A stretch of DNA of 64,000 bases, taken from Candidatus Vallotiella sp. (ex Adelges kitamiensis) (GTDB taxonomy: Bacteria > Pseudomonadota > Gammaproteobacteria > Burkholderiales > Burkholderiaceae). Below are positions 18,790-32,242 of this stretch, piece by piece (position 1 is the stretch's first letter; each line of letters begins with the position of its first letter). Where the stretch lies: assembly GCF_020342435.1 (NCBI RefSeq), contig NZ_CP080504.1:211698-275697 (forward strand), read 5' to 3'. The position numbers were made by a program, and so were the translations under genes. The notes beneath the pieces were generated by a model. It searched no databases and was not told where the DNA came from. It saw only the letters and a program-made list of their open reading frames with translations.

Positions 18790-19752
18790 CTAAGTGATAG
18801 GTTCGGCTACCGCTAAAGCGCTATGCTCTATGAAGTATTTTCGGGCGTGGGCGACATCGCATGTTATTGCCTGAACAAGCCTCTCTAAGTCCACGAACTT
18901 TTGTTCGTCACGCAATTTCTCTAGAAATTCGACTCGCACCAGTTTCCCATATGCATCACCATGCCAGTCTAGTAAGTGTATTTCTAACAGTAAGCGCCCA
19001 AAATCAGCTACGCTCGGGCGCCAGCCTAGACTGGCCACGCCAGGTAATGGATCTGCCTCAATACCACGAACTTGAACAATAAAGATACCGGACAGTGCGG
19101 GACGCTTATTCAAAATTGGTAGATTTAGCGTTGGAAAGCCTAAGTCGCGCCCCACTTTCATTCCATGCACGACGTGGCCGCTAATTACAATTGCTCTACC
19201 AAGGGTAGCGCGAGCCGCAGCGAGGTCCCCCGTAAGAAGCGAAGCACGCACGCCAGAGCTTGAAATACGCATCCCGGATGGGCCTGACACGGTAGGCATC
19301 TGCTCAACCTCAAAACCATACTGTATGCCAGCTGACTTTAGCGATAGGAAGTCACCAGCGCGCCTTGCTCCGTACCGGAAGTCATCGCCAATCATTATCC
19401 AGCGAGCGCGCAATCCGTTAACAATGATGTGCTCGACGAATGCCTCCGCTGACTGACTGGCGAATTTACAATTAAAATGTTCAACTACAACCTGATCCAC
19501 ACCATTGCATCGCAATGCCTCAAGCTTATCGCGCAAGATTGCGATACGCGGTGGCGCGGTAGCCGGATTGAAAAACTCGCGGGGGTGCGATTCGAATGTC
19601 ATCACACAGACCGGGAGTGCGCGAGCTCTAGCAGCTGTACAAACGCGCGCCAACAACGCTTGGTGGCCGCGATGTACACCGTCAAAGTTGCCGATTGTCA
19701 GCGCACAAGGTGCGCAATGATCAGAATTTGGAAGACCCCTAAAGACTTTCAC
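18790..19752 (-). CDS. ribF: bifunctional riboflavin kinase / FAD synthetase
   Basis: Converts riboflavin to FMN and then FAD. The GTG at 19752 (VKVFRGLP) gives 320 residues and matches the family start; the frame is open further upstream to 19848 but that part has no family resemblance. N-terminal adenylyltransferase domain with TIGNFDGVHRGHQ and GDDFRYGARRAGD; C-terminal kinase domain with GRDLGFPTLNL. Upstream of ileS on the same strand, as in many proteobacteria, with a 219-bp spacer. Confidence 0.95.
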   Translation of the reverse strand: MKVFRGLPNSDHCAPCALTIGNFDGVHRGHQALLARVCTAARARALPVCVMTFESHPREFFNPATAPPRIAILRDKLEALRCNGVDQVVVEHFNCKFASQSAEAFVEHIIVNGLRARWIMIGDDFRYGARRAGDFLSLKSAGIQYGFEVEQMPTVSGPSGMRISSSGVRASLLTGDLAAARATLGRAIVISGHVVHGMKVGRDLGFPTLNLPILNKRPALSGIFIVQVRGIEADPLPGVASLGWRPSVADFGRLLLEIHLLDWHGDAYGKLVRVEFLEKLRDEQKFVDLERLVQAITCDVAHARKYFIEHSALAVAEPIT

Positions 19753-27335: not shown

Positions 27336-27377
27336 CAGCGCCGTGTTTTTAGATTTAAACGATGCTTTGTATTTTAT

Positions 27378-28178
27378 GCGACTAATTAGTGAGTTGCTGT
27401 TATATGTATCACCTTGATCACTAGCCTTCGAAACAAGCAATTTCGTCACGACAAGCAACGCAGCAGCTTATGTTTAGCCTAGTATCGCTGAGTTGATAGC
27501 TGAACAGTATACCGGTACGGCCGCACCCACTTTACACTTCGTCGATGATTAATGGTATATCATGTTCTCGCGTGAGAGCTTGTAATTTCTGCATAAACTC
27601 GAACGATGTGGAAATAACGCTAGCCTCACCTTGAATCGGCTTAAGTCGGTTAAAATCCTCTTGACGGAGCTAATATTGTTGAATATGGCTTTTAGAAAGC
27701 TAATCGTCTGCGGATGCGTATAGAGTGTCCGGCCAGGTTTACCGCTAGCCGGCATCATTTCTAGTGTACGGCCGTGAAAGCTGTGATTAAACATAATAAT
27801 TTTATATGCGCCGCTCTTGAACTTACGACTCTATTTACGTGCGAGCTTAATCGTGCTCTCGTTTGCATCAGCTCCGCTGTTAGCGAAAAACACTTTATGA
27901 AAGCAACTATTTTCTGTAAGCAACTCCGCCAGCCGTCTCATCGGTTTATTATAGAACGTCGGACCAAGATTAATTAATAGTTATGCTTGTCGATTAAGCG
28001 CGTCAATTACTGCAGTATTGCAGTGCCCGAACGCATTGACTACCGAACTCTAGATGAAATCTAAATAGCGCTTTCCATAGTTGTTATATAACTATAATCC
28101 CGCGCTCCACGTGAAAACAATAGCGGGACGATTAGTTGTATACATCACAGACTGAAATAAGTAATCCTGAGAGTTTAT
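27378..28178 (-). pseudogene. argD: acetylornithine/succinylornithine-type aminotransferase remnant
   Basis: Reading from 28178 on the minus strand one frame gives recognisable class III aminotransferase sequence: [78 protein letters not shown]. It carries in-frame stops where relatives have Trp (TAG), Gln or Trp (TAG), Lys (TAA) and Trp (TAG), and ATA where the start ATG should be. Near 27650 the frame shifts with a small deletion; IQGEASVI, FEFMQKLQALTREHD and LIIDEV-stop-SGCGRTG follow in another frame, then a larger deletion and finally SDQGDTYNSNSL. The PLP-lysine part is lost. Clearly dead. Whether another argD exists elsewhere cannot be seen. Confidence 0.85.
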
Positions 28179-30453
28179 AAAAAATTATTAATAATACTGA
28201 TTATTACAATAAATTATTACTCGGGATCTGCAAAAAGTTATAGGAATCTCTAGCTTTATAAGTTATGTGATAGTATTTTAGCGCGAAATAAGAGGTGATC
28301 ACTGATCGCAAATTATTCCGAAGAATACGCGCTGTGAAGATCGGGTGCAAACTTGAAGTTACGATGTACTTATTTAACAGTGTCGCGAAATATAGATATT
28401 TCGACATAAGAGTCAATCAAAACTGGTTCCCAAATCTGCTACACTTCGAATGAATCTATATAGAACTTATCAACCGGCAAACCGTGACGTATAGTAAAAT
28501 CGTGTCTCTTAACCTCATCTATTACTGGCACCTTAGATATTACATACCTAATACTTAAACAAGTCTATCGATCCCCGAGCGATGTAGGAAACCTATACGT
28601 CTTCTATAACTATTAGCTAGATCAGGTTCAAAGGTCAACATCTATGTTGACTCTGTCGTCTGCTCCAGCACGGTATCATAGGGCGATTTTCGCCTTTAAA
28701 ATATTATTCAATAATCGCTTTAGTAGGGCTTCTGTTCTAGAAGCAAGCAGTACAATTAGCTTATTTAATTCTCACGTAGACAGAACGCCGCACAGCGGGG
28801 CTCTCGAAGCGAGAGAATGTCATATTCTTTTATAACACTAAAACATAGTCTGTAAGTAAGATACACCCGGTATCGGTATATCCTTAATATACACCTTGAG
28901 CGGTCCCTTATAGTCTTCTAGCGCGCTTGCTATTGAATGGCTTCAGCGCTTGCCATCGTTAAGGACGAGTCTGATATACTAACCCGCTAAATATTACAGT
29001 CTTTTATTTTTAAGTAGTTGCAGCTGGAGCGCTATTGCGTCGTGTTCTACGCGCTAGTCTTTGTATTATAATCGCCAACCTTACTTATCTAGATCGATTG
29101 TGTAGTAATGATGAATAACAGCACCATGCCACCGGTTTTCTATCTTTTGATAGAACCGATAATGAATGTTAACACTGATCAACACGGCTATTTACTAATC
29201 GATCTTTATTGAACCACATACATCTTTCTTGCGGCCGTATGAAAGATTGATATCCTGACACAATGCGGTAGATAAAAGTAATTTGCTAGCTTTTACTTAG
29301 ATTTGCTTTTGCTCTGTCTGAGCATTACTCTAAATGTTATATCTCAATTATAGCCACTCATGGAGCTTTGTTTATGTTGGTCGACACGCTGTATTAATAA
29401 CCGAGTGCAGATTTCCCATACATTATTTATATGTTTACGCTTTTATATTGTGCATTATATTCTTGATAATAGACTGACGATATGCTGAAAACACTATTTC
29501 AGTGTTTAAACTAAATTTTTCTGATTAGCTACGCTAGCTTAAACAAGATTAACTGCGGTTCAATTATTTAAGTTTAGCTTACTTGGGTTCGCGAGAAATA
29601 AGATTGCCCAAAAATTCTGGGGCGTTTCATCACGCGCAATTTAAGGAGTGCTTTTCTTGAAAAAGAGGAGATGAGAAATACATCAATAAGTATTCGCTAA
29701 GCGTGATGAACACAATCGTGCAGCTATCGCCGCTAAGCATAGCGATATTTCTAGGAGAGTGCTTGTCAAAGTTTTTATTTATCAATGTAAGATATACTTG
29801 GGAAGTATGCCTCTTATAATGATCCGTACGTCTAGGCTTATGAATACATGGATAACGCAGTTTGTTGCTGCGGAGATTCTCTATGCTTCTTGCTGGCACC
29901 GTTTATAATATAGATCGTTCTATGATTTTGACTCACTAATGCTTCGGCTCGAGTACTTTAGATAGCATAAATGTTTTAACAGATTTGCACTAAAGCCCAT
30001 TAGGATAATTTGATTGGCAGGCCAGAGACTCGAACCTAATAATTCTACAGAACAGGATAAGCCCTGAGGGCTATACAACTAGCGTATGCTCCGCATATAA
30101 ATAATCGTCTACTGTATTAAAATAGAGCTTAGATTATCGAGGCATAATCGTCAATTATGATTGCACCTCGAATTATTAGCATTTCGAGTTTTTACTAAGA
30201 TCTGAGGCCCGATAAAAAGAGTGCTATGCCCTAGATACCCCAACAATACGCTCGTTATACCAAAATTAGTGTGGACTACGCTTTGTATTATATGACAATG
30301 TACTAGTACGTCCCAGTCTGGGACTATCATATATTAACTGAACAATTAAGTAACACTTGTATTCTAAACACGGCGGGCATCAGTACTCTACTATGTAGAC
30401 ATATAACAGTGCTTTGTTCCCGTACATCGGTGAGAACTAGTTCGATTTTTCTG
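28179..30453. other. 2.3-kb gene desert
   Basis: No intact gene on either strand. The only longer frames (for example 29630-29899 minus, 89 codons) have no family resemblance. It holds a short hairpin CGAAATA/TATTTCG near 28385-28402 and a tRNA-like 3' end at about 30015-30040. Probably eroded former genes. Confidence 0.5.
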
Positions 30454-31925: not shown

Positions 31926-32242
31926 TGGTGCCCGGAGCCGGGATCGAACCGGCATGCCTTTCGGCGGGGGATTTTCTTCCCACCTCGGCTTTCGCCGCCG
32001 CCCTACCGAGAGTGGGCGTTCGTGGTCTGGAGCACGCCTTTACCTTAGCTTTTCAGCTTTAGGTACCCGCCGTCTGCTCTCTACACCTTCTAAGATACTT
32101 TTAATATCTTAGCTTGGATCGGCATTAGCTCGAACTTTTATTCAGGGCTTTTACCGAGTTTGACGGGCTTCACCCCCAGGATTTCTCCCGAAGGGCTCAA
32201 ATTTTTTGAGTCCCCTGCGTCTACCAATTTCACCATCCGGGC
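31926..32242 (-). tRNA. tRNA-Leu(CAA) interrupted by a group I intron
   Basis: On the minus strand the acceptor arm GCCCGGA (from 32242) pairs perfectly with TCCGGGC followed by A and an encoded CCA ending at 31926. Exon 1 (32242-32208) carries the D arm and the 5' anticodon stem GGGGA plus CTC; exon 2 (31975-31926) starts AAAA-TCCCC, then a class II variable arm, and the T arm GCCGG-TTCGATC-CCGGC. Joined, the exons give an 85-nt tRNA with a 7-nt anticodon loop CTCAAAA and anticodon CAA, reading UUG. The intron sits after position 34. Confidence 0.93.
31976..32207 (-). other. group I intron in tRNA-Leu anticodon loop (232 nt)
   Basis: Self-splicing ribozyme candidate. It begins AAAAAATTTGAGCCC, whose GAG pairs with exon CTC to form P1, and ends in G (omega-G at 31976) before AAAA. 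Conserved core: R-type GTGTAGAGAGCAGACGG (about 32085-32069) and S-type AAGGCGTGCTCCAGACC (32040-32024). P7 pairs GAGCA (32079-32075) with TGCTC (32034-32030); P3 pairs CCGTC (in 32168-32162) with GACGG (32074-32070); P8 is the hairpin 32065-32041. A peripheral 8-bp hairpin is at 32112-32090. Arrangement closely matches cyanobacterial and plastid tRNA-Leu(UAA) introns (subgroup IC3). No ORF inside. Confidence 0.9.

Follow-up and report, generated by a model that had tools for sequence, protein, structure and literature searches.

Is the only tRNA-Leu(CAA) gene found in a reduced symbiont genome split by a working group I intron, and how did the intron come to lie there? The question arises at one locus of the window, by which we mean the whole 64,000-nucleotide stretch of Candidatus Vallotiella sp. 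(ex Adelges kitamiensis) DNA that was analyzed. Introns of this subgroup are best known from tRNA-Leu(UAA) of cyanobacteria and plastids, tRNA-Ile(CAU) of Azoarcus, and tRNA-Arg(CCU) of Agrobacterium; we take the subgroup to be IC3, the small bacterial tRNA type. A sequence-only reading of the window had proposed that the tRNA-Leu(CAA) gene of a reduced betaproteobacterium is split by such an intron, and covariation, ARAGORN, and a match to the Rfam group I model (RF00028) below that model's curated cut-off support it; the coordinates, strand, 232-nt length, and terminal G proved exact when ARAGORN was run with introns allowed. The features are as follows.

31926 to 32242, minus strand: tRNA-Leu(CAA) gene split by a group I intron (ARAGORN with introns allowed; the joined exons form a tRNA)
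32208 to 32242, minus strand: 5' exon, 35 nt, with 3' end ...GGGGACTC (U33-C34) (ARAGORN, sequence)
31976 to 32207, minus strand: group I intron, 232 nt, with G at its 3' end (ARAGORN, RF00028, pair counts)
32196 to 32201, minus strand: internal guide UUUGAG (sequence; P1 pairs counted, P10 by eye)
32173 to 32195, minus strand: P2 hairpin with a GAAA loop (alignment; covarying helix)
32066 to 32166, minus strand: P3-P4-P6 core, CCGUC...GACGG and CUCGG...CCGAU, with a C-U outer P4 pair (RF00028, pair counts)
32027 to 32079, minus strand: P7 (GAGCA / UGCUC), enclosing the 3' strand of P3 and P8 (pair counts)
31980 to 32025, minus strand: P9 domain, with a GAAA loop in P9b (pair counts)
31926 to 31975, minus strand: 3' exon, 50 nt, with 5' end AAAATCCCC (ARAGORN, sequence)

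The interrupted gene and its ribozyme fold

With introns allowed, ARAGORN reported tRNA-Leu (caa) i(36,232), 317 nt in total, which places the intron in the anticodon loop between C34 and A35; its -ifo option set the intron 3 bases later, and the remaining options agreed on 36. The exon and intron limits are established by sequence and comparison. A tRNA search with the intron removed, one of the checks that the earlier reading had proposed, returned tRNA-Leu(CAA): the joined exons form an 85-nt tRNA-Leu with anticodon caa and a mature cloverleaf. Default ARAGORN reported zero tRNAs over the window, which bears out the warning that tRNA finders may overlook the gene. The promoter-like site immediately 5' of the gene does not exceed the chance level (2 in the region versus 2.5 expected), and a search for a terminator-like site found none.

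Another proposed check, a group I model search, gave a significant match: RF00028 aligned to the window intron from end to end (model positions 1-253) with 32.2 bits and an E-value of 2.7e-6, although this score falls under the model's gathering score of 50, and an Rfam scan of the window at default cut-offs reported nothing. Three tRNA-Leu(UAA) introns (L011, L033, and L034) and a further CAA intron (L005) scored between 30 and 44.7 bits; all five introns scored therefore lie under the gathering score, and the curated cut-off of Rfam misses every one of them. A chance origin of the intron-like feature is excluded by the E-value, the covariation, and the conservation.

Helices P1, P2, P3, P4, P6, P7, P8, and P9 are all present in the window intron. 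The group I helices were drawn on one sequence (L093), and pairs were then counted across an alignment of 43 introns (37 CAA and 6 UAA, the window's included), hand-picked from 82 distinct ones. Standard pairs occupied 95.9% of the cells, versus 27.6-42.1% when partners were slid, a comparison in which a structure drawn on an aligned row has an advantage over the slid controls for that reason alone. Both sides change in 26 of the 58 pairs, and none of 500 shuffles matched the alignment in any of five measures, values that kinship among the rows can also push past every shuffle. P1, P3, P6, P7, and P8 were paired in 43/43 rows, which includes all four of the helices that the sequence-only reading had named (P1, P3, P7, and P8), and P4 was paired in 98.6% of cells. 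The core is nearly invariant across the alignment, and the covariation that comparison establishes for the fold lies in P2, P5b, P6a, and P9a; this covariation of peripheral helices is stronger evidence than the contrast with the slid controls. The window intron retains the GAAA loops of P2 and P9b and, folded in isolation, reaches -83.7 kcal/mol (z = -3.8), as low as none of 200 shuffles.

In the window, V. tarda, and V. lariciata, the two bases of the outer P4 pair are C and U, whereas all 40 other aligned rows form a pair there. At this position, five of six UAA rows carry U and 36 of 37 CAA rows carry C, the exceptions being L212 and L132. Such a pattern could point to a coupling of P4 with the P1 pair, but it may reflect descent only. 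The window differs at 5 of the 136 columns (counting exon ends) that do not vary among 33 non-Vallotia CAA introns, and the outer P4 position is one of the 5. Judged by its sequence, the window intron has the look of a ribozyme that is being maintained but is slightly worn.

Distribution and history of the intron lineage

One pattern scan of genome contigs yielded 103 stretches, all of which were inspected, and 62 of these hold a complete intron, 220-252 nt long, in a tRNA-Leu(CAA) gene. Two more (L049 and L070) are truncated by contig ends; the remaining stretches were uninterrupted tRNA-Leu genes, half-tRNAs, or chance matches. By title, 40 of the 62 loci belong to Burkholderiales (Alcaligenaceae 15, Comamonadaceae 13, Burkholderiaceae 9, and others 3), and the rest to Lysobacterales (9), Ca. 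Vallotia (3), other gammaproteobacterial or unplaced proteobacterial bins (9), and a Mycobacterium bin (1). In samples of whole genomes, the CAA-intron pattern occurred in 13/299 of the family, eight of which are the genus, and in 1/200 of the order, the window's own; a UAA-intron pattern occurred in 109/299 of the family and a narrower version in 11/200 of the order, these being pattern matches that are mostly unconfirmed. Judged by these matches, the UAA intron seems widespread and the CAA intron scattered, yet the latter is in every genus member examined. The earlier reading needs correcting in that the case is not isolated: introns at the same site are found in 8/8 genus genomes examined and in dozens of bacteria outside the genus, most of them Burkholderiales or Lysobacterales.

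Several loci from these searches are unusual in themselves. One Pusillimonas caeni contig (L059 and L127) has two intron-bearing tRNA-Leu(CAA) genes with different introns, of 250 and 236 nt; Bordetella ansorpii likewise has two (L070 and L102), the former truncated by its contig end. At L067, L085, and L112, a tRNA-Leu 5' half is followed by unrelated DNA, as at the attachment sites of integrating elements. The 237-nt introns of L093, L123, L141, and L149, whose titles are Ralstonia (the metagenome bin L093), Variovorax (two), and Pseudorhodoferax, are letter-identical, either through a recent shared origin or through a misbinned contig. The locus titled Mycobacterium (L066) is a tRNA-Leu(CAA) gene with an intron and exons of the Rhodanobacter type, and its contig is probably misbinned.

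A tree was built from the 103 intron sequences of all searches less 21 exact duplicates, leaving 82 (60 CAA and 22 UAA); L066 was included, and L093 was left out of the 15 Burkholderiaceae introns tested as a group. The CAA label needs 2 changes on this tree, as few as in none of 500 shuffles, and the UAA intron L212 is placed inside or beside the CAA introns. Uniting the 60 CAA introns in a single clade is not rejected (p-AU 0.255), although such a clade was seen in just 6% of bootstrap trees. For groups named after the tree had been inspected, and on a tree whose bootstrap was unsettled and whose program warned of long branches, a single clade was rejected both for the 15 Burkholderiaceae CAA introns (p-AU 0.0013) and for the 9 Lysobacterales CAA introns (p-AU 0.012); these tests reject vertical inheritance alone. 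The genus introns form one group with support of 98/92 (bootstrap / SH-aLRT), and nearest to them, at a weak 83/85, stand four Alcaligenaceae introns. We infer that the lineage descended from tRNA-Leu(UAA) introns and spread via horizontal transfer.

The exons track the host more than the intron does, and those of Lysobacterales are a type of their own. The simplest history is that the intron entered a resident gene, whether through reverse splicing or through recombination inside its exons. A less probable course, though one that deserves real weight, is that the whole tRNA gene was acquired with its intron and replaced the resident gene. Exons are identical among Mycetohabitans and several Alcaligenaceae and Comamonadaceae, so that an exchange of exons would leave no trace, and certain CAA introns are letter-identical between genera. 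The locus, which comparison establishes, points the other way: a relative (G022) has an uninterrupted tRNA-Leu(CAA) gene flanked by lptF and ispH, and both the gene order and the orientation match those around the interrupted gene of the window. In two more genomes (G021 and G017), lptF lies about 9 kb from the gene on the expected side; in three (G015, G009, and G016), 0/6 of the window neighbors were found within 20 kb around the gene. Against replacement also stand the Lysobacterales, whose exon type is distinct and whose introns are mixed with betaproteobacterial ones, so that movement of the intron need not involve whole exons. Replacement through recombination inside the exons is possible.

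Conservation in a reduced genome and a second intron

The genome (1,172,651 bases; completeness 99.95) consists of two contigs of 1,105,254 and 67,397 bases. Its nearest relative is Ca. Vallotia tarda, with whose intron that of the window groups in the tree; two papers (PMC8692619, PMC12696581) describe Ca. Vallotia as adelgid symbionts close to Mycetohabitans. The tRNA model RF00005 found 43 tRNAs, on contig 1 only, and ARAGORN assigned to the Leu loci among these 43 the anticodons CAG, TAG, and GAG, neither CAA nor UAA. A search pattern describing CAA or UAA genes without an intron, with up to 2 mismatches allowed, found no uninterrupted gene in the eight genus genomes; its six matches, in five of the eight, were three interrupted genes and three sequences that are not tRNAs according to ARAGORN. 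An intact tRNA-Leu(CAA) gene elsewhere was part of what would have spoken against the sequence-only reading; none was found in the genome, within the assembled sequence and among copies near enough to the patterns. As the intron interrupts the only tRNA-Leu(CAA) gene found, its loss would be possible only via exact deletion. A weak RF00028 match at contig 1 positions 716876-717035 (E 1.6) was discarded when a rescan of that locus (L002) gave none at E <=1. Between ispH and the next ORF, window positions 27336-30408 contain no ORF of at least 90 amino acids, as in a decaying genome.

Comparison establishes the CAA intron at the same site in 8/8 genus genomes examined. Could it nonetheless be decaying, the gene a pseudogene, the ribozyme inactive, and UUG decoded by tRNA-Leu(UAA) through wobble? 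That tRNA could decode UUG by an established decoding rule, the genome is reduced (1.17 Mb), and the outer P4 pair is missing from the window and two Vallotia species. We nevertheless consider decay very unlikely. The window and V. tarda share 91.2% identity in the intron and 96.5% in the exons, whereas the 3' and 5' flanks (66.7% and 72.6%) are near the shuffled level (66.6% for the intron and 68.3% for the 5' flank). P3, P7, and P8 are paired in every aligned intron, the window's among them, the exons once joined yield a complete tRNA, and tRNA-Leu(UAA) is itself split by a group I intron. When the window is set against V. lariciata, V. cooleyia, and one Mycetohabitans, identity is 80-86% in the intron and 58-71% in the flanks; between two Mycetohabitans (L005 and L007), the 5' flank is 94.8% identical versus 97.0% for the intron, i.e., there is no contrast on the 5' side. 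The survival of such an intron in a shrinking genome had been called striking: the intron is indeed present, but its survival is less surprising than stated, as it is inherited in the genus and sits in the sole CAA gene found.

The second intron, of 262 nt, lies in a tRNA-Leu(UAA) gene at positions 19334-19680 of the 67-kb second contig (G000:C2, L033; L194:7334-7680), which is the only UAA gene found in the genome. A direct scan with RF00028 gave it 35.9 bits, and it occupies a branch of the tree separate from that of the CAA intron. It was unlisted in the whole-genome RF00028 search even at E 10; the first pass of such a search therefore misses real introns, and more may exist. The UAA intron is present in all eight genus genomes examined. 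In two of them (G003 and G007, genomes of 3.6-3.8 Mb), it lies on chromid-sized contigs of 822 and 790 kb, and in V. tarda (G002) on a contig of 72,431 bp.

Decoding of UUA needs tRNA-Leu(UAA). Since this tRNA was found only on the second contig, that replicon, which may be a plasmid or a chromid remnant, would be indispensable for translation. On the stretch of it inspected by eye (G000:C2:12001-32000, L194) are ORFs resembling ThiC, RecB, RecD, and an aromatic aminotransferase. Other genes of the contig (ThiC-, RecB-, and RecD-like) may also keep the replicon in place. A hidden interrupted tRNA bears on why a small replicon persists during genome reduction. In the V. tarda paper, a plasmid of 72,431 bp is given 0 tRNA genes, and a Mycetohabitans paper reports no tRNAs on chromids; annotation can conceal tRNAs that matter, as the count of 0 on the V. 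tarda plasmid illustrates. Taken as a whole, the history that we somewhat favor is that an intron lineage switched from tRNA-Leu(UAA) to tRNA-Leu(CAA), exchanging U-G for C-G while keeping its guide, and spread in Burkholderiales and Lysobacterales, so that both UUR-Leu tRNAs of Vallotia would now depend on ribozymes and the replicon with the UUA tRNA would be indispensable.

Splice sites, proposed mechanism, and known systems

Exon CUC pairs with GAG of the guide in 100% of the alignment cells, making the three pairs of P1, and by eye the UUU of the guide can pair with AAA of the 3' exon as P10. At the 5' splice site, the 37 CAA rows have a C-G pair and the 6 UAA rows a U-G pair, the guide G being common to both. 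The patterns used to scan for CAA and UAA introns fixed the guide (the first required C34 and TTTGA(A/G)), so that this pair is built into the introns found by scanning, and introns with other guides would escape. The eight genus introns, by contrast, came from a BLAST search that used the whole gene as query and no guide pattern, and all have CTC opposite GAG, i.e., C-G; UAA introns from the same BLAST have CTT, i.e., U-G. With ARAGORN's placement, 62/62 complete CAA introns of the scan end in G and are followed by exon AAAA; the 5' bases of the introns differ (AGACC, AAACC, AAAAA, AAGCA, and ATAGA), whereas the 3' exon is constant. Given the CAA anticodon and the terminal G, the cut must fall after C34.

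From its sequence, the intron is very probably an intact group I ribozyme, of the small type known from bacterial tRNA genes, that repairs the tRNA-Leu(CAA) transcript. P1 would form between the guide UUUGAG and exon CUC, and C34-G would stand at the 5' splice site. A guanosine held in P7 would then cut 3' of C34, and the released 5' exon would attack after the terminal G, aided by P10 between UUU and AAA of the 3' exon; the predicted outcome is mature tRNA-Leu(CAA). We infer both splicing in the cell and tolerance of the C-G pair, which could slow splicing in comparison with the usual U-G.

U-G is the near-universal 5' splice-site pair of group I introns; reportedly, Hur and Waring (in 1995) had group I introns with C-G at this site, from fungal mitochondria. 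The C-G pair is shared with those introns, and the ones described here are bacterial tRNA introns; standing beside close U-G relatives, they offer a ready comparison for splice-site recognition. As far as its accessible text extends, the open-access literature on tRNA group I introns yielded no report of one in bacterial tRNA-Leu(CAA).

Bacterial tRNA-Leu(UAA) group I introns, also found here in Burkholderiales, are the nearest non-CAA relatives in the intron tree and are alike in the 34/35 site, the GAG guide core, the fold, and the terminal G. They differ in that here the host anticodon is CAA with CAA-type exons, the splice-site pair is C-G and not U-G, and the outer P4 position has C instead of U in nearly all CAA rows. 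That the closest non-CAA introns occupy the same site of tRNA-Leu(UAA) might suggest an intron-bearing UAA gene whose anticodon changed from U34 to C34, a scarcely credible origin that we reject on exon type and locus: the exons of a Mycetohabitans gene (L005) are unlike the UAA exons seen and letter-identical to uninterrupted CAA genes of G021 and G015 (the GACGCAGGGGACTC type), and the window gene sits where G022 has its uninterrupted CAA gene.

The tRNA-Ile(CAU) introns, as in Azoarcus, have a different insertion site. Set apart by description, they are likewise small, in proteobacterial tRNA, and overlooked by finders, and the tRNA is another one; the tRNA-Arg introns, of which that in the CCU gene of Agrobacterium is an example, are of the same general type, again in another tRNA. 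Published work names tRNA-Ile(CAU) group I introns in Acidovorax and Burkholderia (PMC8450103) and tRNA-Leu-TAA and tRNA-Arg TCT introns in Beggiatoa/Thiomargarita (PMC4853749). Group I introns in bacterial tRNA are known; what appears to be new is the host, tRNA-Leu(CAA), together with the C-G splice-site pair, and tRNA-Leu(CAA) is thereby added to the bacterial tRNAs that house such introns.
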